54,057 bases of DNA from a virus, in the IMG/VR virus record IMGVR_UViG_3300048597_000056, positions 1 to 54,057 of that record; one strand, written 5' to 3'. Every line of letters starts with the position of its first letter. The stretch's first letter is position 1. This document shows, in pieces, positions 2,263 through 47,894 of this stretch. The notes beneath the pieces are model-generated. The model was given only the letters and a program-made list of their open reading frames with translations. It was not told the DNA's origin and ran no database searches. Both the position numbers and the translations under genes were made by a program.

Positions 2263-2329
2263 GCCTAACCCCCGGTTCAAGCGGAGTCACCCGGCAGGCC
2301 GGGTGCCCCGCTTAACCGGAACGTTAGAA
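2263..2329 (+). other. Integron-type attC site 1
   Basis: Read on the plus strand: outer core GCCTAAC (2263-2269), inner arm CCGGTTCAAGCGG, a central hairpin CACCCGG/CCGGGTG, inner arm CCGCTTAACCGG, and outer core GTTAGAA (2323-2329). The inner arms pair perfectly apart from one extra C on the left arm. That single unpaired base is the hallmark of attC sites and fixes their polarity. The flanking outer cores fit RYYYAAC and GTTRRRY with one deviation. The stop codon of the transporter gene (TAA, 2326-2324) is embedded in the right core. Confidence 0.85.
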
Positions 2330-2815
2330 GGCGTCCGCTTCTCGTTGCACCGTGCGCGCCAGCAGTGCGGCCCACACGGCACCACCGAGCACCTTCGCCA
2401 CGAACTGCAGGGCAACGATGTGCGGCATCAGCACACCAAAGGCAAGCGTCGGGAAAAGCAGCGAGTCCACCGCAGCGCCTGCCACGTTCGAGCCGTTGGC
2501 ACGGTACAGCCAAGACCCGCGCAGCCGCGCGAACGTCGCCCAATCCACCAGGGACGCAGCGGTGAATGCCACGCTCGACGCCACGGCGATCATCCCCGCT
2601 GCCGGGTTCAGTGCGTAGGTCAGAAGCCCCGTGGAGGCGATCAGCGCTCCCATCTGCCAAGCGCGCAGTCGAACGTGCAGCCAGTCGCGCAGCGCCAGGT
2701 CCAACCCGATCAGCACGAAGGCATTGATCGGGCTCACCCACGGCCCGAAGTGGGCGATGGTCAGGTTCGCCACGGTCATCGCGGCGGCATAGATCAGGAT
2801 TGCAATGGTCAGCAT
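2324..2815 (-). CDS. VUT/YhhQ-family queuosine-precursor transporter
   Basis: The 163-residue product is almost entirely hydrophobic, with about five to six membrane segments. It has signatures I associate with the VUT family (PF02592, formerly DUF165; E. coli YhhQ): ANLTIAHFGPW near residue 16, a PINAFVLIGLDLALRDWLH stretch, and SNVAGAAVDSLLFPTLAFG. YhhQ homologues import 7-deazaguanine precursors (preQ0/preQ1) across the inner membrane. The start overlaps the end of the DpdA-like gene by 7 bp, so the two are coupled. The likely role is to feed the modification enzyme with a precursor the phage cannot make, since no queuosine synthesis genes are present here. The stop codon lies in the attC core. 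Confidence 0.8.
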   Translation of the reverse strand: MLTIAILIYAAAMTVANLTIAHFGPWVSPINAFVLIGLDLALRDWLHVRLRAWQMGALIASTGLLTYALNPAAGMIAVASSVAFTAASLVDWATFARLRGSWLYRANGSNVAGAAVDSLLFPTLAFGVLMPHIVALQFVAKVLGGAVWAALLARTVQREADAF

Positions 2816-3492
2816 AGAGCCTCTTGAATTGGCCGCTCAGTCCAAAGAGTCGGCGGGTTGGTGGAGTCGATACGCTGCGCCATGCACTCAGCGCAGGTTG
2901 TGGAACCGCGGTTTTTGAAGTTGCGGCCTACGTTCGTGGAATCCGCGCTCGCCAGCGGCCACGGGCCGGCAGCGTGCCCCAGCATGCGCAGGCCGTGCAG
3001 CCAGGGCACGCGGCCAAACTGCTGCACAAGCGCGTTAAATGTCTCGTCCATGCGCCCAGCCCACGCGGCCGAGCCAACCTGCCAGAACTCGCCGCTACTG
3101 CCGATGCACACGCGGGGCCAGTCGTTGCACAGGTCAAACAGGTATTCCAGCGGCAGGCCCAGGTGCCACACTGGCGCCCCGTACTCCTTGCGGTGCGGCC
3201 AGGTCGCCACCATCGCGCGCTGCTGTTCAACGCCGCCGCCTATCTCGTCTGGCACTACAGCCCAGTGCGGGTGCGCCAGATGCGGCTCGATCCAGCGGTA
3301 AAAGCCAGGCGCATCAAACGCTATGCCGCGCGTCTTCACGCTGAACGCGCCGTTGTCCAGCATCACACTTTGCCCAATTCTCAGGCACGTACTCAAGTCC
3401 TGCGGCGCAGCGTAGCTCACGCAGAACATGCGCCCCGCCATCGCGCTCAAGCTGGCGCGCGGCGTGATTGGGGTTCCGTGGTAGTGCAGCAC
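2809..3492 (-). CDS. dpdA: DpdA-like DNA guanine transglycosylase (TGT paralogue)
   Basis: A GTG start at 3492 has GGAAGGA seven bases upstream. The 227-residue product follows the tRNA-guanine transglycosylase layout: DNGAF (46-50, like the DSGGF substrate loop), PDE (81-83), GSSGE (131-135, like the GGLAVGE loop), HGLRMLG (166-172), and ADSTNVGRN (183-191), whose Asp184 is the candidate nucleophile. TGT and DpdA enzymes swap guanine for a 7-deazaguanine base; phage DpdA proteins do this in DNA. The C-terminal CAEC (200-203) may bind metal. It is shorter than true TGT and adjoins a precursor transporter, which favours DNA modification. The family call is from motif pattern only. Confidence 0.75.
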   Translation of the reverse strand: MLHYHGTPITPRASLSAMAGRMFCVSYAAPQDLSTCLRIGQSVMLDNGAFSVKTRGIAFDAPGFYRWIEPHLAHPHWAVVPDEIGGGVEQQRAMVATWPHRKEYGAPVWHLGLPLEYLFDLCNDWPRVCIGSSGEFWQVGSAAWAGRMDETFNALVQQFGRVPWLHGLRMLGHAAGPWPLASADSTNVGRNFKNRGSTTCAECMAQRIDSTNPPTLWTERPIQEALC

Positions 3493-3515
3493 TCAATCCT
3501 TCCGCTTCGGAAACA

Positions 3516-3540
3516 GCCTTCTAACCCCGCATTCGAGCGG
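3516..3540 (+). other. Partial attC site 2 (left half only)
   Basis: Outer core TTCTAAC (3519-3525, within GCCTTCTAAC) is followed by an inner arm ATTCGAGCGG containing the same extra C seen in the other sites. The matching right arm (a CCGCTCAA-like sequence and a GTTRRRY core) is not visible before or within the neighbouring gene at 3543-3764. The site therefore looks truncated, probably by a deletion that fused it to that gene. Confidence 0.65.
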
Positions 3541-3542
3541 CC

Positions 3543-3764
3543 TCACAGCAGCGTGGCGGGCATCCACCCGCCTTCTGTCAGCCATATCGCCAGTTCGCGG
3601 CGCTTCATCGCCGGTTGCGTCATGCCGTCAGAGAGGGACACCATCACGAAGCGCGCATCCCCATGCTCTGCGGCCAGGAAGCCGATCAGCAGCCGCTCTC
3701 TGATCGTCTGCTTGCCGACTTGTCGGCCGGGAATCACGTCGCTCTCTTCCCAAGAGACTCGCAT
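3543..3764 (-). CDS. Hypothetical protein, 73 aa
   Basis: I chose the ATG at 3764 because AAAGGAA lies just upstream; the longer reading frame would run into attC site 3. The product begins MRVSWEESDVIPGRQVGKQT and ends WLTEGGWMPATLL. It is soluble and of unrecognised family. It sits between attC site 3 and the truncated attC site 2, so it is probably the content of a cassette that has lost one boundary. Confidence 0.55.
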   Translation of the reverse strand: MRVSWEESDVIPGRQVGKQTIRERLLIGFLAAEHGDARFVMVSLSDGMTQPAMKRRELAIWLTEGGWMPATLL

Positions 3765-3793
3765 AGTCGTTCCTTTCGTTCCGGCCACCATAG

Positions 3794-3889
3794 GCCGAAC
3801 TAGTTGTTCGAGCGGACTGCCTGCCGGCAGTCCTCGTGCATCATTCGTCGTCAGCGCGGGCAGGCATCCGCTCAACGCCGACGTTATGC
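3794..3889 (+). other. Integron-type attC site 3
   Basis: The outer core GCCGAAC (3794-3800, one deviation from RYYYAAC) and the outer core GTTATGC (3883-3889, a core type also found in Vibrio-type attC sites) flank paired arms. GTTCGAGCGGACTGCCTGCC on the left pairs with GGGCAGGCATCCGCTCAAC on the right except for two extra C bases on the left arm. The right core is directly followed by the reverse-strand stop codon of the gene ending at 3891. Polarity is the same as in sites 1 and 4. Confidence 0.8.
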
Positions 3890-3890
3890 G

Positions 3891-4664
3891 TCAGATCAAA
3901 GCGCGGATGGCGGCTCCACGCCCGCATCCTCCACGCTGACTATCGTTGTCAAGACACTCGTGCAGGACATGCGGACGGCCAAGCGAGGCGCGCAGCTCGG
4001 CATTAGCCTTGAATAGCAGCGCGTAGGCTTCCTTTAGCTCAGCGATTTCTTCCTCATCTGCTTTGCTGGCGCGTGGCGTCAACCCCGGCACAAACTGCCC
4101 AGCGTCAAGACGGTGAAGCGCATCCATGACGGTCTCGACGGTCGGCGCATCGGTGCTAATTGAGCCATCGGCGCCTAGCTTTGCCATCATGTGCGACACG
4201 GCAGCGTAGAGGCTCGACCATTCAAAGTTGTCTGCCGCGAGCTTTGCTGGCGCTGCTGGGGCGGCTGTGTAAAGCGGAAAATCAAGAACTGTTTCTGACC
4301 CAGACGGAACACAATGAAATTCACATAGTCCATCGGGCCATTTCCACATCCATGCCACCGGCTCGGCCTGTTCTGTGGGCTGCGACTCTTTGAGCGCGTG
4401 TACGAAAGCAAGGCGCGCTGAATCGGCTAAGTTATCCGGCATGTCGCCGTGGATGCATCGCAGAATCTCCATGAACCTGTCACCCAACTCTAGCGCCACC
4501 GGCTCGGCCTGTTCTGTGGGCTGCGCTAGGGCTGCGCGAAGTTGCTCAATGACTTCGGGGCACCAGACGGTGATTGCCTCGACGGTGCCGTCATCGTGAT
4601 CTGTGCATCCGCCTTGCAGGTTCTCCAGCACTTCCAGCGCAGCGCGCATTGCTTGTTCGCTCAT
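3891..4664 (-). CDS. Modular accessory protein with repeated EPVAW linker
   Basis: The ATG at 4664 lies in an ATGA overlap with the upstream stop. The 257-residue product starts MSEQAMRAALEVLENLQ. It contains QPTEQAEPVA twice, the second continuing as EPVAWMWKWPDG...PLYTAAPAAP, a block I know from many betaproteobacterial phage and prophage proteins of unknown function. A helical ELKEAYALLFKANAELR stretch follows. The stop codon touches the core of attC site 3. No catalytic motif is visible. Confidence 0.7.
   Translation of the reverse strand: MSEQAMRAALEVLENLQGGCTDHDDGTVEAITVWCPEVIEQLRAALAQPTEQAEPVALELGDRFMEILRCIHGDMPDNLADSARLAFVHALKESQPTEQAEPVAWMWKWPDGLCEFHCVPSGSETVLDFPLYTAAPAAPAKLAADNFEWSSLYAAVSHMMAKLGADGSISTDAPTVETVMDALHRLDAGQFVPGLTPRASKADEEEIAELKEAYALLFKANAELRASLGRPHVLHECLDNDSQRGGCGRGAAIRALI
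4354..4525. repeat. 31-bp direct repeat within a gene
   Basis: Positions 4354-4384 and 4495-4525 are identical. They lie in frame inside the gene at 3891-4664 and encode the duplicated QPTEQAEPVA linker. The spacing of 141 bp is a multiple of three. The repeat probably arose by, and could promote, recombination between modules of these accessory proteins. Confidence 0.9.
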
Positions 4665-5824
4665 GGCATTTGCCCTCCCACACACTCGATCACGATGCGC
4701 TCGATGGCGCGGGCAACTCGACGCATGTCGCTCATCGTCTGCCATCCACCAGAACCGTGCGATGTAGAAACGCTGTCGATCTGCTCATCACTCAGCGGCA
4801 CATAGGGTGCGCTTGCTGGTGGCGGGTGGTAGTACACGGGGCGAACAACCCATGTCGCGGCATCTTCAATGTCGTCTTCGTTTATGGCATCGTTGATGTG
4901 CTCGTGGGCGGCTTCTTCCCATGCGGCGGCGTGTTCTAGGCTCAACGATCCGTCGCTGTTGACGCTGCACACATGCCACGCAACCGGCTCTGCGCTCACG
5001 CTGGGCTGCGCCTCCTGCCGGCCGCGATCAATCAGCGCTTGCGCGTCAGACGAGACGCACGGGTCAAGCCAGATGTCGTGATGCCATTGCAGCAACTTGT
5101 TCAAGTCGTCATAGGGCTCCGTCGCTACGCCAAGATGCGCGACAACAAGGGCCTCATCAATCGCCTCTCGCCAAGGGTTGCGCGCCTGCTGCGGTGCTGG
5201 GGGTGCGGCGTAGAGCATGGCGCGGTAGCATTCAACCCATCGGAATTGCGCCGGCAGCGGGTGCGCGGAAGGCCCGACAGCGCGCCAATACTTCTCTGCG
5301 GCCTCGGCCATTGCAGAAGTAAATGGCGCGCGGCAACAGGCGCTATCTGCCGGCTCATTTCCAGCGCAATATGGGTAGGTGCATAGCGCCACCGGCTCAC
5401 CCTGCGCGTGCTGCGTCAATGGCGGCGCCCATTGCTGATTCCCAGCAGTGGTGCCGCTGCTCATTCGGCCCGTCAACATCTGTGTAGAAAGTTGCGCCCG
5501 CATCGCGCAGCCCCGATACCGCTCCGCATCCGCCTTCAGCGCCTCGCGCTCGGCCCGCAGCGCGGCAATCTCTGCGGCCTGCTGCTCGATCTCTCTGCGC
5601 GCCTTCAGCAGCAGTTCTTCGCGCACCCACTGGGCGACGCCATCTGCGCGCCAGCCCATGCAGTTTTCTCGCCCACAGCGCGCCAGCTTTTCCAGTTCCG
5701 ACGCCTGCTGCTCGATCATGTCTGCGGCTTTGGATTCAAGCGCTGCAACATCTCGATAGCCTAGTGATGTCATCCAGCTTTCGTTTTCGCGTAGCCGCTC
5801 GGCCAGTGTCTTTGCGTCGGTCAT
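4661..5824 (-). CDS. Large modular accessory protein (MTDAKTLA, coiled coil, EPVAW, PLSDEQI)
   Basis: The 387-residue product joins modules seen elsewhere in this phage. The N terminus MTDAKTLAERLR is shared with the gene ending at 512. A coiled coil (EIEQQAAEIAALRAEREALKADAERY) follows, then two EPVA blocks (EPVALCTYPYC and EPVAWHVCSVNSDG...VRPVYYHPPP), and finally PLSDEQIDS...RAIERIVIEC, which is shared with the gene at 1692-2237. The central part has several Cys residues (CGRENC, CTYPYC, CCRAPF). Function is unknown. It is coupled by ATGA to the following gene, suggesting both travelled together between attC sites 3 and 4. Confidence 0.7.
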   Translation of the reverse strand: MTDAKTLAERLRENESWMTSLGYRDVAALESKAADMIEQQASELEKLARCGRENCMGWRADGVAQWVREELLLKARREIEQQAAEIAALRAEREALKADAERYRGCAMRAQLSTQMLTGRMSSGTTAGNQQWAPPLTQHAQGEPVALCTYPYCAGNEPADSACCRAPFTSAMAEAAEKYWRAVGPSAHPLPAQFRWVECYRAMLYAAPPAPQQARNPWREAIDEALVVAHLGVATEPYDDLNKLLQWHHDIWLDPCVSSDAQALIDRGRQEAQPSVSAEPVAWHVCSVNSDGSLSLEHAAAWEEAAHEHINDAINEDDIEDAATWVVRPVYYHPPPASAPYVPLSDEQIDSVSTSHGSGGWQTMSDMRRVARAIERIVIECVGGQMP

Positions 5825-5843
5825 GGCAGGCTCTGTTAGCGGA

Positions 5844-6212
5844 CTAGGGTGTCTGCCAATTCACGTTGGGCTGCACATCCAAACCGCCGCACACGTCCAG
5901 CAGCATCATTGCCATGTTGGCAACGTCTGCCGAGTGTTCGCGGATCAGCGCGCCGTCCTTGTTCTTCACGGCCGCCGACAGCTTTGCGGTGTGCCAATAG
6001 ATTTCCAGCAGCCCGACTTCTGGCGTCATCGACAGCCAGCCGGGCCGGTCCCCTTTGCGGGCGTTGGCGTGCAGCTCGGCCTCCATCAGCGTCACAAATG
6101 GCCCCAGCACGTTGCCGTACTTGCCATGTAGCGCGTGCAGCCCAACTGGTCGTTGCACCTGAACCCCTTCGGCGGGCGGCTCAGTGGCGTTCGGGAACTC
6201 GGTGGTGCTCAT
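5844..6212 (-). CDS. DUF550-like / MazG-fold nucleotide pyrophosphohydrolase
   Basis: The 122-residue product contains ELHANARKGDRPGWLSM, EVGLLEIYWHTAKLSAAVK and REHSADVANMAMMLLDVCG. This arrangement matches the DUF550 (PF04447) family, annotated as dATP/dGTP diphosphohydrolase N-terminal-like, and resembles the paired acidic helices of MazG-type all-alpha NTP pyrophosphatases (E in EVGLLE, D in SADVAN). It may trim the host nucleotide pool in favour of phage or modified nucleotides. It lies 21 bp after the upstream small gene and 19 bp before the next start. Confidence 0.65.
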   Translation of the reverse strand: MSTTEFPNATEPPAEGVQVQRPVGLHALHGKYGNVLGPFVTLMEAELHANARKGDRPGWLSMTPEVGLLEIYWHTAKLSAAVKNKDGALIREHSADVANMAMMLLDVCGGLDVQPNVNWQTP

Positions 6213-6233
6213 GCTTGGTCAGCGCCTCAGTGG

Positions 6234-6494
6234 TCAGGTGAACTTTGCGTTGGGCGTCTTCAGGTTCGCCCGCAGTGTGGTCAGCGCGGCCACTATCCCG
6301 GCATCCTGGCCACGCCAGTAACTGCCCGGCTGCCCTGCCGGTTTCATCGGGTCCACCATCTGCCAAGTCAGGCGCAGGGCTTCTTCCCAGCGTGCCGTTT
6401 CGGCGTCAAGCGCAGCCCGCAGCAGTGAGGCTTCGGTTTCGGCCTTCATGGCGCGCTGCAGCAGCGCGAGGTCCATCTGCAGTTCAACGTGCAT
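6234..6494 (-). CDS. Hypothetical helical protein, 86 aa
   Basis: I chose the ATG at 6494 (MHVELQMDLALLQRAMKAET) because the reading frame upstream of it overlaps the next gene and is low-complexity Arg/Ser. The start follows the upstream stop by four bases. The product is a predicted helix-rich soluble protein (AETEASLLRAALDAETARWEEALRL) with no motif I recognise. Confidence 0.55.
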   Translation of the reverse strand: MHVELQMDLALLQRAMKAETEASLLRAALDAETARWEEALRLTWQMVDPMKPAGQPGSYWRGQDAGIVAALTTLRANLKTPNAKFT

Positions 6495-6498
6495 GGCG

Positions 6499-6687
6499 TC
6501 AGCCGCGCTTGGTGGCGCGCTCCCAGATGGTGTCCAGCGTTTCGACCTGCTTCGCGCTCGGGCGGCGGCCTTCGGCAAGCTGCCGCTGTAGCGAGTCCAC
6601 AAAGCCGAGCTCCCAATCGCTCAAGCGCTCGCTGCGCTTCTCGCAGTCTTCCAGCAGCGTCAGGTACTCATCAGCCCAGGTAGTCAT
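6499..6687 (-). CDS. Conserved small phage protein, 62 aa
   Basis: The ATG at 6687 begins MTTWADEYLTLLEDCEKRSE and the end reads AEGRRPSAKQVETLDTIWERAT. The pattern 'LLEDCE.R...L.DWE..FVDSL...L..GR..S.KQ...LD.IWERAT' recurs in many phage early regions in my experience, but no function is known to me. The start lies inside the upstream Cys-rich gene (17 bp overlap). It is a soluble, helical protein. Confidence 0.65.
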   Translation of the reverse strand: MTTWADEYLTLLEDCEKRSERLSDWELGFVDSLQRQLAEGRRPSAKQVETLDTIWERATKRG

Positions 6688-6907
6688 CTTCGTCCTCCGG
6701 CCATCCGTGGCACAAGCATTCGCAGGGGTCTTCCGGGCCATCGCCGCCGTAGCGAATCCAGGCGCACATGCTGCCGTCGTGGTGCGCGCAGACGCAGCCG
6801 TAAGTGCCACGCGGCCCCTCGGCGTCCGTGCCTTCGTTCACCGGCCGCCCAACTGACGCTTCGAGCCGACCCACAACAGGCCGGCTAGTTTGGTTCGCTT
6901 CGGTCAT
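6671..6907 (-). CDS. Cysteine-rich small protein starting inside attC site 4
   Basis: The 78-residue product has a Cys/His-rich centre (CVCAHHDGSMCAW, CECLCHGW) and an acidic tail (PEDEDDYLG), suggesting metal binding. The ATG at 6907 has a strong GAGGAAAC upstream, and both lie within the arm/loop of attC site 4; about the first 20 residues are encoded by attC sequence. A GTG just past the attC core (frame VNEGTDAEG) is the alternative start but has no visible ribosome binding site. Family not recognised. Confidence 0.6.
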   Translation of the reverse strand: MTEANQTSRPVVGRLEASVGRPVNEGTDAEGPRGTYGCVCAHHDGSMCAWIRYGGDGPEDPCECLCHGWPEDEDDYLG

Positions 6908-6949
6908 GTTTCCTCGGCCTGTTGCGGTCGGCTCAAGCTAACGTTAGGC
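6847..6949 (+). other. Integron-type attC site 4
   Basis: The outer cores GCCCAAC (6847-6853) and GTTAGGC (6943-6949) fit RYYYAAC and GTTRRRY fully. The arms GCTTCGAGCCGACC...CAACAGGCCG and CGGCCTGTTGCGGTCGGCTCAAGC pair over about 22 bp, with one extra C on the left arm as in the other sites. The reverse-strand stop (TAG, 6953-6951) of the next gene lies one base beyond the right core. The loop carries a ribosome binding site and start codon for the reverse gene at 6907. Confidence 0.85.
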
Positions 6950-6950
6950 C

Positions 6951-7190
6951 CTAGAAGCCGCGCCCCTGAAGATCGGCCGTGTGCCACAGCATCAACTTGC
7001 CTTGCCTTTGGTGCCCGTCGCCACCTTCGCATCGAAGCACGGACAAGCACTCTTGATGTTTGGCGCTCAGGTGCCGGCATGTGCGGCAGTCAAGCGACTC
7101 CAGCTTTGCGGTTGCGTAATCTGCCGCGCTGACTACCTCCATCGTTCCGGCTCGATACGGGTGCTGAATGGTGAAGCTCTCAAACATCAT
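6951..7190 (-). CDS. Hypothetical protein with CxxC...C residues, 79 aa
   Basis: I chose the ATG at 7190 (MMFESFTIQHPYRAGTMEVV) with GGAAC upstream; the frame before it is Cys/Arg-rich and unlikely to be coding. DCRTCRHLSAKHQECLSVLRC gives a possible zinc site, similar in spacing to small phage zinc-ribbon proteins. The stop is one base from the attC site 4 core, so this gene would be the 'first' gene of the cassette beginning there. Function unknown. Confidence 0.55.
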   Translation of the reverse strand: MMFESFTIQHPYRAGTMEVVSAADYATAKLESLDCRTCRHLSAKHQECLSVLRCEGGDGHQRQGKLMLWHTADLQGRGF

Positions 7191-7251
7191 CTTGTTCCGG
7201 TTACGACTAGGGATAGGGTGGGTCTTGGGGGAAGAGTCGGCAGCTTTGCAC

Positions 7252-7539
7252 TCACAACAACCCAACCTGCACCAGCGCCCACAGCACGACGACGCCAAGA
7301 CTGGCGCCGAGTCCCCACGCGGCGACCGATGCTGCCTGAAACTGCTTCGGTGCCGGCCGGTAGAACAGCGCCTGCTGCAGCCAAAGCGCGTCGTTGCTGT
7401 AGTCGCGCGGGTTGACGCATTCGTAGGTGCCGGCGAGAGTGTCGCGGCGCAGCACTGAGCTGGGCGCCCAGCGGCTGCTGATGGCGGGCAGGCGTGGATC
7501 GAGAAAGACGGACCCGTCTTTGTTTCTGTGCAACATCAT
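7252..7539 (-). CDS. Small membrane-anchored protein, 95 aa
   Basis: GGAGGGG lies directly before an ATGATG at 7539, overlapping the stop of the tiny upstream frame (ATGA). The product begins MMLHRNKDGSVFLDPRLPAI and ends with one hydrophobic segment (AASVAAWGLGASLGVVVLWALVQVGLL), so it is probably a C-terminally anchored inner-membrane protein. A longer frame starting at 7617 exists, but the ribosome binding site supports 7539. Function unknown. Confidence 0.6.
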   Translation of the reverse strand: MMLHRNKDGSVFLDPRLPAISSRWAPSSVLRRDTLAGTYECVNPRDYSNDALWLQQALFYRPAPKQFQAASVAAWGLGASLGVVVLWALVQVGLL

Positions 7540-11983: not shown

Positions 11984-12889
11984 TTATTTCAGGAGAAAGC
12001 GACGAGACACATTGCCGGTGTGCGCGAATTGATAGTAGAGGTCAGGGTGTGCAACCTTGAACTTCGCCGCGTCGAAGCGTTGTGCTGGCTTTGCTGCCTT
12101 CCAAGTGCAAAGAGTCGATCCACGTTCATCGACAAGCGTATCGGCTTCTCCCATTGCCTTCATCACGAAAGCCTTGAGCATTTCCTCCTGCTCGTCGTAC
12201 TGTGCGCGTTGCAGTCGGAGTGCTTGAAGCTGCAATACAGCCTCCTTTACGGGGTCGTCTGCCATCACCAGTGCTGACTTGCTGGCGCGGCCCCACTTGG
12301 CCTGTACGTCTGCAAAGCTAACCGGGTCTGGAGGATTCCCGGCCTGCACTCGCGACCAGAATTCAGCCTCTGCCGCAATGATCATTTCCTGAAGCTCGCG
12401 GTCTGCCTCGACTTCGTAGATACGGAAGTCACTCCCGCCGATCAGCACGGCAATGTCAGCGACTGGAATAGCGGTAACTTCCATGTAGTGCTGCACCTGT
12501 AGGAGGTAGGCTTCCGGTACTTGATCTGTCCCAGGCTCGCCCCATCCCTCGGAGCTTCTAGCTGTCTTTGCCTCGAAGATTCGCCCGGTGCGGTCTGCAA
12601 TGACCCCATCGAGATTGGCGATCATGAAGTCATGCTTCGGGTGCCTGAGCATCGTCTCTGGAATGCGGACTTCGTTCCCTGTGGCATCAGAGTAAGCCTG
12701 CCGGATGACTGGTTCTAGATACCGTCCCCACTGCATCGCTTTGTTGTCCTCGGTAGGCTGAGATTCCCCGCGCTTAGACAGGTAAACCTCCAGCGCTGTA
12801 GACCACTTGCTCAGACCCAGGATCGCCGCTACGTCCGATCCGCCGATCCCTGTCGAGCGGGCCAGATGCCATTCTCTAGACTTTTCCAT
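11984..12889 (-). CDS. YqaJ-type (lambda-exonuclease-like) recombination nuclease
   Basis: The 301-residue product has the PD-(D/E)XK layout of YqaJ viral recombinases: GIGGSDVAAILGLS (14-27), WGRYLEP with E59, LDGVI with D94, and EAKTA with E107 and K109, followed by LLQVQHYM. It would degrade one strand at double-strand ends to produce tails for annealing and recombination or concatemer formation. Its partner is probably the protein encoded just downstream. The start at 12889 overlaps the upstream gene by 14 bp. Length fits the family. Confidence 0.85.
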   Translation of the reverse strand: MEKSREWHLARSTGIGGSDVAAILGLSKWSTALEVYLSKRGESQPTEDNKAMQWGRYLEPVIRQAYSDATGNEVRIPETMLRHPKHDFMIANLDGVIADRTGRIFEAKTARSSEGWGEPGTDQVPEAYLLQVQHYMEVTAIPVADIAVLIGGSDFRIYEVEADRELQEMIIAAEAEFWSRVQAGNPPDPVSFADVQAKWGRASKSALVMADDPVKEAVLQLQALRLQRAQYDEQEEMLKAFVMKAMGEADTLVDERGSTLCTWKAAKPAQRFDAAKFKVAHPDLYYQFAHTGNVSRRFLLK

Positions 12890-45116: not shown

Positions 45117-47133
45117 TCTCAATAAGACTGTTGGCATTGTTTTTGAAAGTCAGGACAAAGTAGGTCCTGTAGTAGAAAACATTGCGAATAGTCTCAGCAA
45201 GCTTGAACGACAACAGCAGTTGTCGGCGGCGCAAGCGTTGCAGTCCGCCGCCGCCGAGGAAAAGTGGGCGGCGTCTGCCATCAAGGCGCAATTGGAGGCT
45301 GAGAAGTTAGCCGCCGATCAAGAAAAGCTAGGTATTGAGACCCAGCAAGCCGCCACAAAAGCTGACACTGCGGCAGATGACTTCAATCGTCTGTCATTGG
45401 TCTTCAAAGCAATCGCTGGTTCAATCGTCGTAAAGGAGTTTCTCGATGCTAATGCTGCGATTGAAAAGCTTCGTCTAGGCTTTGAATCCGTCACCGGTAC
45501 AAGCGCCGCCGCCGCCCGAGAACTTGAATTCGTACGTGACGCTGCCGATCGGCTCGGCGTTAAAACTGAAGAGGCCGGTTTTGCCTATCTTCGTTTGGCC
45601 GCCGCGACAAAAGGCTCTACGCTTGAGGGCGAAGGTGCTCGCGCTATCTTTGAGGCAGTCACAAAGCAACTCGTGCTGCTTGGCGGGTCGAGTGCAGACG
45701 TTACCGGTGCGCTGATTCAGGTTGCACAGGGAATCAGCAAGGGGAAATTTGAGCTCGAAGACCTTAAGAGCATTGCCGAGCGCATGCCGGGATTCTTCGA
45801 CAAGTTTGCAGAATCACTTGGCAAGACGACGCCGGAACTGTTCAAACTGATCGAGCAGGGGAAGATCGGCGGTCCGGAGTTTCTGAAGTTTGCAAACACG
45901 GTTAACGCCGCGATCGGATCAATCGACGTTGACACTTACGAAGCGCAGACGGCGCGGCTGTCGAATGCATCGAAGGATTTAGCGGTAGCGCTTGGTGACG
46001 CGGGGCTATTCAACGCCGCCACTAAATCAATCGAGGTTCTCGCTGGAAGCATCAAGGGCATCCCTGGGCTATTTGAGAAGTTCCGCGACGGTGCCAAAGA
46101 AGCTTGGGCTTCACTAAGCGCTGGCGAAGGCACGATAAAGATTATTCGTGAGAGTCTCGCTGAGTCGGAAGTCGGCGCGCAAAAGTTTCTTGGCACGTTT
46201 GAAAACGGCGCTGAAAGTGTTAATCTTTTTGCCGATGAAGCGGCGAAATACATAGAAGAAACCGCCGGAGGCTTTAATCTTTTTGCCGGCGAAGCGGCAA
46301 AGTACATCGCGGCCACAAAGGAGATCGACGCCGCGTACAAACTCCTTGGCATCAACTCCGAAAAAGTCAACGCAGACTTCATCGGGGCATTTGAAAAGAT
46401 TGCTGCGGGGGCGACTGCGACAGGAAAGGTTGTTCTAGAAGCCTTCAGCAAGGCACTTCCAAAACTCGAAGGCGGCGATGACTTTGTGCGCGCTATGGAG
46501 GCGCTTAACAAAGCGTACGAAAACGGAACAATCAACGCCACACAGCACCGAAAGGCTGCGGAGGATTTAGGCAAGGCGCTGGAAAAAACGGTCGGCCCGT
46601 CCGATGATGTCAAAAAGGCTTTTGAGGCCCAGCAAAAGGAAATCACTCGCGCTAAAGAAGCCGCCGAGAAGTACCAGCTAGAACTAGAAAAGCTCGCCGC
46701 GAACGAACGCATCAAGCTGATCGAGGCCCGCGTCCAGTTGAACGTCGCGCAGATCGAGGCGGACACGAAGCGCATTGAAGCGGCGTTCGATAGCATCAAC
46801 TCCGTTGTTGGCGACACGAACGAGCTGATCGGCAACCTGTTCGGCATCCTGGCCGACCCCAATCTGGAGTGGGCGCAGATCAGGGCGATCGAGGATCAGA
46901 TCGCAAAGGAAAACCTGATTAAGCAAGGTCAACTCGAACTGCAGCGCAAGTTGATCGAGGCGCAGATCATGAAGCTCAACGCCGAGACAGCGAACATCAT
47001 CAAGGGCGACGCGCTGATCAAGATAGACGGCGCCGGGCTACAGCCGCACTTGGAGGGGTTCATGTGGGAAATCCTGCGCACGATCCAGATGCGCGCGAAT
47101 CGGGACGGCCGCGCGCTGTTACTGGGACTCTGA
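45109..47133 (+). CDS. Tape measure protein
   Basis: A GTG start at 45109. The 674-residue product has an N-terminal coiled coil (NIANSLSKLERQQQLSAAQA) and the conserved tape-measure domain (residues about 105-250: SIVVKEFLDANAAIEKLRLG, GFAYLRLAAATKGSTLEGEG, ALIQVAQGISKGKFELEDLK SIAERMPGFFDKFAESLG). A long helical C-terminal half follows. It sets tail length; at about 1.5 Angstrom per residue this predicts a tail of roughly 100 nm, consistent with a siphovirus. Base composition shifts from AT-richer to GC-rich near 46690, inside the gene. Confidence 0.85.
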   Translation: MADLNKTVGIVFESQDKVGPVVENIANSLSKLERQQQLSAAQALQSAAAEEKWAASAIKAQLEAEKLAADQEKLGIETQQAATKADTAADDFNRLSLVFKAIAGSIVVKEFLDANAAIEKLRLGFESVTGTSAAAARELEFVRDAADRLGVKTEEAGFAYLRLAAATKGSTLEGEGARAIFEAVTKQLVLLGGSSADVTGALIQVAQGISKGKFELEDLKSIAERMPGFFDKFAESLGKTTPELFKLIEQGKIGGPEFLKFANTVNAAIGSIDVDTYEAQTARLSNASKDLAVALGDAGLFNAATKSIEVLAGSIKGIPGLFEKFRDGAKEAWASLSAGEGTIKIIRESLAESEVGAQKFLGTFENGAESVNLFADEAAKYIEETAGGFNLFAGEAAKYIAATKEIDAAYKLLGINSEKVNADFIGAFEKIAAGATATGKVVLEAFSKALPKLEGGDDFVRAMEALNKAYENGTINATQHRKAAEDLGKALEKTVGPSDDVKKAFEAQQKEITRAKEAAEKYQLELEKLAANERIKLIEARVQLNVAQIEADTKRIEAAFDSINSVVGDTNELIGNLFGILADPNLEWAQIRAIEDQIAKENLIKQGQLELQRKLIEAQIMKLNAETANIIKGDALIKIDGAGLQPHLEGFMWEILRTIQMRANRDGRALLLGL

Positions 47134-47134
47134 C

Positions 47135-47494
47135 ATGCTGAACGTCGTTGCGTCGCACGTGTGGGACCTGGCCGGCTACGTCGAGCTGGAAGTTGACAAC
47201 AGCAACACATCCGGCCCGACGCGCCGCCGCGTCTCGCGCATCGCCACGCTGGACGGTGGCGCGGTGTTCAACGATGCGGGCTACACAGAAGCTGATCGCA
47301 CCATCGAGCTGTCGTGGAATTCCGCGCTGCAATCAGCTACGGCCGATGCGGACATTGATCGTCTTGTGCGCACCTATACCCGCGTCGTCGTCGTCACGCG
47401 CAGCGGCGCCTATCTCGCCTCGCCCGAAGCGTTCACGCCCGGCGCGCCCGACTCGCGGCTGAAGCTTCTCATCGTTTCCAAACTATCCTCGTAG
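47135..47494 (+). CDS. Putative distal tail protein, 119 aa
   Basis: The product starts MLNVVASHVWDLAGYVELEV. A beta-rich compact domain (RRVSRIATLDGGAVFNDAGY TEADRTIELSW) of this kind recurs immediately after tape measure genes. It probably belongs to the tail tip. No motif is diagnostic. Confidence 0.6.
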   Translation: MLNVVASHVWDLAGYVELEVDNSNTSGPTRRRVSRIATLDGGAVFNDAGYTEADRTIELSWNSALQSATADADIDRLVRTYTRVVVVTRSGAYLASPEAFTPGAPDSRLKLLIVSKLSS

Positions 47495-47504
47495 GGAGCC
47501 CACT

Positions 47505-47894
47505 ATGCCCGCACCAGCACAAGCCACCTTCAGCGCCGAGTCGCTGATTGCCGCGCACACCGCGCTCCTGAACCTGATCGACACGGGTACGGCCGGCTCG
47601 ATCAAGATTTACGACAACTCCGACGTGCTGCTCGCACAGATCACGCTCGACGACCCGGCCGGCACCGTCAACGGCACGACGGGGCAACTCACGATCACGA
47701 TGGACGGGCGCGACGAGTCGGCCAATTCCTCAGGTACAGCAGCCTACGCAACCATTTGCGAGTCTGACGGCACGGTTCACCTATCCTTGCCTGCGCAGGC
47801 CGGCGCCTCGCCCGTGAGCGGCAAGATCGTGCTCAATACGCTCACCATCGTGTCCGGGTTGCCGGTGGAAATCCTGACTGTGACCATCGGGTGA
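47505..47894 (+). CDS. Putative tail protein, 129 aa
   Basis: The product starts MPAPAQATFSAESLIAAHTA. LLNLIDTGTAGSIKIYDNSD, TGQLTITMDGRDESANSSGT and a C-terminal strand region (VLNTLTIVSGLPVEILTVTI) form a small beta structure. It is probably a tail-tip or decoration protein; assigned by position. Confidence 0.6.
   Translation: MPAPAQATFSAESLIAAHTALLNLIDTGTAGSIKIYDNSDVLLAQITLDDPAGTVNGTTGQLTITMDGRDESANSSGTAAYATICESDGTVHLSLPAQAGASPVSGKIVLNTLTIVSGLPVEILTVTIG

Follow-up and report, generated by a model that had tools for sequence, protein, structure and literature searches.

The window, by which we mean the whole stretch of DNA analysed here, is the 54,057-nucleotide (nt) IMG/VR virus record IMGVR_UViG_3300048597_000056 (positions 1 to 54,057), and our subject is a group of integron-type attC recombination sites in its leftward early operon. 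A 127-nt terminal repeat shows the assembly to be closed, and with its genes for terminase, portal and tape measure proteins the window represents a whole tailed-phage genome. Neither it nor eight related records yielded a tyrosine recombinase of any kind; the window genome has no match to PF00589 or TIGR02249. The attC region has no match in Rfam, a BLASTN comparison with isolated phages produced just short, unrelated matches, and two phage attC and a window cassette had no match in 50,697 isolate phage records (INPHARED). Sites were scored with R1, a covariance model trained on 22 attC from IntI-encoding loci (IntI1-like, bacterial genomes) with the window sequences excluded, whose E-values are only rough. 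The features of the region are as follows.

2263..2329, plus (top strand): attC site 1; R1 34.8 bits, E 2e-6.
2323-2329: R' core GTTAGAA of attC 1, containing the TAA stop of gene 2324-2815 (minus).
2324..2815, minus: cassette gene for a Vut_1/YhhQ-like 7-deazaguanine precursor transporter; PF02592 5.5e-11, phrog_4899 1e-36.
2809..3492, minus: cassette gene, phrog_887 'queuine tRNA-ribosyltransferase'-like; phrog_887 3.5e-44.
3516..3540, plus: half attC with R'' and L'' arms only (TTCTAAC...ATTCGAGCGG), about 24 nt before the start of 2809-3492 (minus).
3543..3791, minus: small cassette gene, from our own codon-usage gene call.
3794..3889, plus: attC site 2, with a long loop; R1 42.2 bits, E 2.9e-8.
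3891..4664, minus: gene; 2 nt separate its TGA stop from the R' core of attC 2.
4661..5824, minus: gene in the same unit as 3891-4664.
5844..6212, minus: gene with its start codon inside the loop of attC 3; relatives in two other contigs (L111, L112) likewise start within attC.
6140..6255, plus: attC site 3; core pairing GCCCAAC/GTTGGGC, perfect over 7 bp; R1 38.1 bits.
6249..6949: complete mobile unit, core to core, made of attC 4 and genes 6671-6907, 6499-6687 and 6234-6494 (all minus).
6671..6907, minus: cassette gene with Shine-Dalgarno (SD) sequence and ATG in the attC 4 loop; its open reading frame (ORF) exits via the attC arm.
6847..6949, plus: attC site 4, with a long loop holding SD and ATG on the coding strand; R1 34.7 bits.
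6951..7298, minus: gene upstream of the array in the operon; TAG stop 2 nt from the R' core of attC 4.

The default R1 scan of the 54 kb called the sites at 3794-3889 (42.2 bits), 2263-2329 (34.8 bits) and 6847-6949 (34.7 bits), with E from 3e-8 to 2e-6, and beyond these three there was no match up to E=10. A fourth complete site, 6140-6255, was first spotted by a pattern finder and scored 38.1 bits (E 7e-8) with the filters off, so that four attC fall within 4.7 kb. R''/R' cores (RYYYAAC, GTTRRRY) and L''/L' inner arms, forming an imperfect palindrome, are present in all four. A simple pattern score of our own making failed by itself to separate all sites from shuffles; a chance origin of the window sites is ruled out by the covariance-model scan. 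The half site 3516-3540 gave no covariance-model match, filters off included; a complete attC lies at the equivalent position of another contig (L110:5907-5978), and the half site is, judged by its sequence, a decayed attC. The original prediction, made from the letters of the DNA, had named three complete sites and a half site, all of which the sequence contains. Its attC-type cores and paired arms are borne out by the scan (34.7-42.2 bits), the stop codons do abut or overlap the cores as it had said, and the attC calls, with no tyrosine recombinase in the window, uphold its description of an integrase-less attC cluster in a tailed-phage early operon. The three sites that it listed are all called by R1; it overlooked the fourth, and the antisense orientation described next went unnoticed. 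Having at least two close attC and no intI in the replicon, the window is by definition a cluster of attC sites lacking integron-integrases (CALIN).

The polarity of an attC can be read from the extra unpaired base, which lies in the left arm of the cassette-gene strand in 30 of 34 integron sites. The window sites score 35-42 bits on the plus strand versus at most 11 bits on the opposite strand, and the genes lie on minus, an assignment confirmed by family matches for 2324-2815 (Vut_1/YhhQ-like) and 2809-3492 (phrog_887). Since the top strands are on plus and the genes on minus, all four attC are antisense to the operon. In a classical array the gene is same-sense with its attC, its stop is near R'' and the attC lies 3' of the gene; the window has a different layout.

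This layout recurs among the loci compared, which are metagenomic contigs (IMG/VR). Every attC is antisense to the phage genes in L003, L007, L012, L110, L111 and L112, the last with 13 sites. Across nine records (G000-G008), with genes from our own codon-usage caller, 56 of the genes that an attC would own in the classical scheme are antisense and 4 are same-sense, contigs with truncated or partial intI (G010-G012) being excluded from the main counts; in IntI loci of bacterial genomes the own gene is same-sense in 32 cases and antisense in 5. One record, G002, has attC in both a leftward and a rightward arm, and in both they are antisense to the respective operon. IMG/VR was also searched with a single 18-nt probe, GCCTAACGTTSGAGCTRA, taken from the half of the site that is conserved; it derives from phage sites and is biased in attC lineage, though not in gene orientation. 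It returned at least 120 stretches, and in 65 further non-redundant IMG/VR loci with 260 attC the own gene was antisense in 236 cases and same-sense in 10, among the matches listed. The identical probe found 7 sites in 6 genomes out of 399 from a single bacterial order, the one to which a Methyloversatilis belongs, and in all these loci the array genes are same-sense. The attC-bearing phages have unrelated terminases and portals.

Read in the coding direction, the order is an upstream stop codon in or beside the R' core, then the attC, then the next gene. By far the commonest position of the upstream stop is TAA within GCCTAAC, at 107 sites of the IMG/VR loci among the matches listed. The attC fall into two length classes: short ones of about 55-70 nt, often followed by SD and ATG 20-35 nt further on, and long ones of about 85-125 nt, which often carry SD and ATG inside the hairpin, the reading frame exiting through the attC arm. 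SD plus ATG was found on the coding strand of 70 of 172 long attC and on the opposite strand of none, and in none of 31 long chromosomal attC on either strand. From the stop in the core, the order attC then gene, and the starts within attC, it follows that the mobile unit between two G/TT points is attC, ribosome-binding site and gene(s), the reverse of the classical gene plus attC. The attC is therefore the 5' leader of its gene and not its 3' tail. Three phages have members of one gene family with the start inside a long-loop attC (L151:14996-15099, L149:7635-7737 and window 6140-6255), and homologues of this family occur in two records (L113, L114) of phages without any attC call.

Some phages have the integrase as well. 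Among 50 attC-bearing viral contigs, 12 have a tyrosine recombinase, four of them a true integron integrase that adjoins an inverse array (G432, G448, G456 and G458; 425-435 bits against a cut-off of 265). In all four, early genes, inverse attC array and intI follow one another in one common direction, and in G448 and G458 an ordinary phage integrase comes next. Seen from intI the attC face outwards, which is the usual integron arrangement, and only the ORFs are reversed: all cassette genes run towards intI, so they do not show the outward reading from the cassette promoter Pc, a statement on gene direction made with no promoter search. A motif, TAAC-N-TCAATTCG ... TAACAC, precedes the intI start in G448, G456 and G458 and occurs also in L192; it is absent from G432 and has no other occurrence in 3.4 Mb of loci, IntI1 loci included. 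By its sequence the motif fits an attI, with an R box and a second core. The four phage IntI, 53-61% identical among themselves, group in a single clade beside the IntI1-type integrases (support 92/95; 96% of bootstrap trees). G432 also encodes a Mu-type transposase (L304:10718-12469, phrog_310), which adds a transposable phage to those with the inverse integron. In the viral contigs L147 and L148 (G011, G012), L124 and L138, an 84-codon intI remnant stands beside two inverse attC, which looks like a complete phage integron decaying into an array without integrase.

Two questions are raised by these observations: why is the polarity kept, and by what process do the units move? For the first, a founder effect has to be weighed, in which the first attC entered the operon backwards and later cassettes simply matched it, with no inherent advantage. 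An attC x attC insertion preserves the polarity of an array, and the phage IntI do form one clade, as such a history would have it. However, phages whose structural genes are unrelated have this layout, which also occurs on both genome arms, and the polarity places the recombinogenic bottom strand on the non-template strand, which is the lagging-strand template if replication is co-directional with transcription (PMC11023631). In an inverted V. cholerae integron, a bottom strand on the lagging-strand template raises excision (PMC11023631), and by analogy such a recombination advantage may be the reason that the polarity is kept. A pure founder effect is thus possible, though we hold it to be the less probable account; the two are compatible and not exclusive.

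For the second question, the evidence comes from shared and duplicated units. The unit 6249-6949 recurs at 88% in the contig of L204 (homology 47110-47810, coding-strand coordinates), in an alignment that runs core to core and ends inside a 7-8 nt core on both sides, with unrelated flanks. G004 has two 100% identical copies of one unit, 2.7 kb apart, and this duplication stops at the cores (GCCTAACGT), beyond which the attC arms and bodies differ. A unit common to G001 and G002 begins at the core in both, and L195 and L219 have one unit in common at 90%. Breakpoints at the G/TT cores, which the original prediction had proposed as a check, are thus found at the cassette level in the window/L204 pair, the G004 duplication and the G001/G002 pair. 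Relatives with the same RecE-neighbour gene (L002-L025) have almost no DNA in common with the attC region, which made a presence/absence comparison of close relatives impossible, and the comparison was made between cassettes instead. Taking all homologous blocks together, both sequences have a core at 20 of 136 endpoints, versus an expected upper bound of 5.7. The excess in these unfiltered endpoints is moderate because shared attC arms lengthen the alignments and many blocks reflect vertical descent. Core-bounded sharing and duplication, as read from these alignments, fit site-specific exchange. Between the window's dpdA-like unit and L107-L110, homology ends near the gene start; these contexts were tried as evidence for G/TT breakpoints and rejected, being too different to prove anything.

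An alternative process would be homologous recombination by the phage itself, with a RecE-like exonuclease acting on short attC homology and the attC being mere relics. The window does have a RecE-like exonuclease gene (11984-12889), conservation over 20-30 nt is frequent in attC arms, and the ends of several homology blocks fall 13-34 nt into an attC. But the downstream core of the window/L204 pair shares just 7-8 nt, with different attC bodies on either side of the comparison, and the arms beyond the ends of the G004 duplication are different. Homologous recombination via 7-8 nt is unlikely, and the explanation as a whole we likewise regard as unlikely. More improbable still is the ordinary capture of classical host cassettes, by attC x attG or illegitimate recombination, with the antisense genes being rare reversed ORFs or accidents. 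The attC type is indeed near that of betaproteobacterial integrons, since R1, trained on such loci, scores phage sites up to 75 bits; chromosomal arrays have an antisense minority (5 of 37); and cassette insertion at non-classical attG is known (Loot et al. 2024, as cited in PMC11023631). Against capture stand the 236:10 antisense ratio in the 65 loci (among the matches listed), which holds whichever way the operon runs and in both G002 arms, the translation starts in attC loops on the coding strand only, and a dedicated phage intI clade. The proposal that chromosomal integrons were the source of the cassettes is therefore not supported: the genes run the opposite way, and the layout recurs in unrelated phages, some with their own intI. 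Least probable, if by little, is that the hairpins are attC look-alikes acting in the RNA of the operon, as attenuators or as structures for processing or translation initiation, for although SD and start codon in the hairpin loop of many sites suggest selection on the transcript and the orientation relative to transcription is strict, the conserved R cores with G/TT have the polarity of IntI-associated attC, units are shared and duplicated core to core, and intI with an attI-like site adjoins such arrays. A translational role may well coexist with the recombination role of the attC.

We thus consider it highly probable that the leftward early operon of the window phage holds a small, integrase-less integron cassette array of inverse polarity. 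Several points weigh against this. The block endpoints are enriched at cores yet not confined to them. A core-exact second copy of the dpdA-like unit was not found among the loci compared, and L107, L108 and L109 have the genes without attC. The window has only four complete sites, one unit has lost half its attC, and the genes were called by a simple codon-usage caller written by ourselves. Finally, neither an excised circle nor a variant at read level was seen, and an IntI reaction on these sites is what we infer.

The inverse array would work as follows. The mobile unit, bounded by two G/TT cores, consists of the attC, then the ribosome-binding site, then one or a few genes; transcription would start at the phage's early promoter and run towards attI/intI, not outwards from Pc. 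In each attC the recombinogenic bottom strand is the coding (non-template) strand of the operon and, under co-directional replication, would be the lagging-strand template as well. For the window phage, IntI would presumably be supplied in trans, either by a chromosomal integron of the host or by a co-infecting or resident intI-positive phage; some phages have the complete system in cis, with intI, an attI-like site and the inverse array. IntI would fold and recombine the sites, so that phages with unrelated backbones could trade single early genes, DNA-modification genes among them. Under the classical scheme, a phage cassette would enter a host attI back to front with respect to Pc, and a host cassette would lie antisense in a phage array; because entry is reversed both ways, the phage and host pools would be insulated in expression. 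The opposite gene direction, its recurrence across unrelated phages and the intI carried by some of them point to a separate phage cassette pool. On balance we favour, with less assurance than the reading of the window itself, a long-kept phage integron lineage with an IntI clade, an attI of its own and a pool of reversed genes with 5' attC leaders, the start codon often lying in the hairpin loop, which trades early genes, a share of them for anti-restriction DNA modification, among unrelated phages; its reversed polarity would insulate it functionally from host cassettes, though both would recombine by one chemistry.

The cargo was examined in 68 larger cassette proteins, which include 8 N6/N4 DNA methylases, 2 C5 methylases and 1 D12 methylase, and one match each to Mom, NADAR and YhhQ-like families; the majority of cassettes match no known family. 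Together with the phrog_887 gene of the window, these matches suggest, without proving it, a cargo biased to DNA modification and anti-restriction. The product of 2809-3492 is possibly a DpdA-type DNA modification protein. A 92% identical gene occurs in L107, a phage without attC, and the similarity to L110 is 92% over the first 51 residues, the L110 gene being preceded by a complete attC. Its neighbour 2324-2815 matches the NCBIfam preQ0 transporter models weakly, below cut-off. The two genes, a phrog_887 TGT-like gene and a YhhQ-like transporter, form a module that moves between phages (window 2324-3492, L107:6001-7190, L108:177-1351, L109:6052-7151); it is accompanied by attC in the window and L110 and lacks them in L107-L109, and it may belong to a 7-deazaguanine DNA modification. 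Elsewhere, a Mom-like gene (L160:5047-5568, minus; PF25680, below the curated cut-off) constitutes a single-gene inverse cassette between two attC. Back in the window, two minus-strand genes 4.3 kb apart, 512-1495 and 4661-5824, have in common a repeated N-terminal segment (MTDAKTLA...) and coiled-coil-like repeats.

Integrons are usually seen as bacterial one-promoter devices, and phage examples as fragments of host arrays. If true, the phage lineage proposed here would explain the base-precise swapping of single early genes among phages and offer a concrete route for the spread of DNA-modification (anti-restriction) genes. It would also bear on the question of cassette origin, in that phage genes may be one source of new cassettes, and it would mean that attC surveys blind to orientation merge two distinct gene pools.

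Phage attC clusters themselves are known. Integrase-less attC clusters and integrons in phages have already been published, and IntI1 acted on five of the six phage attC assayed, according to the main text of Qi et al. 2023 (PMC9892861). Like the phage CALINs of that main text and Tetrasphaera phage TJE1 (HQ225832), the window has an integrase-less attC cluster in a tailed phage, and DNA methyltransferases are among the cargo of such clusters. Unlike the window sites, the attC of the published TJE1 array are same-sense with their genes by R1, as in classical arrays. The portions of the Qi et al. 2023 main text consulted (PMC9892861) describe neither inverse polarity nor starts in attC loops nor a phage intI clade, and no description of them was found in the open-access literature searched. 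What goes beyond earlier reports is the inverse polarity, together with how large the system is. With the sedentary chromosomal and IntI1-like integrons of Beta- and Gammaproteobacteria, the phage arrays share the attC architecture, the G/TT cores and one or a few genes per attC, and the intI-positive phages share the intI-attI-attC geometry as well. In contrast to those integrons, the phage cassette ORFs face intI rather than away from it and are not read from Pc, and the phage attC precedes its gene on the 5' side and frequently contains the start codon. In CTX-type phages, host XerCD acts on a folded single-stranded attP. If the window phage relied on its host for a tyrosine recombinase that works on a folded strand of DNA, this would be of the same kind; unlike in CTX-type phages, however, it would involve many integron-type sites and serve the shuffling of genes within the phage genome rather than integration.

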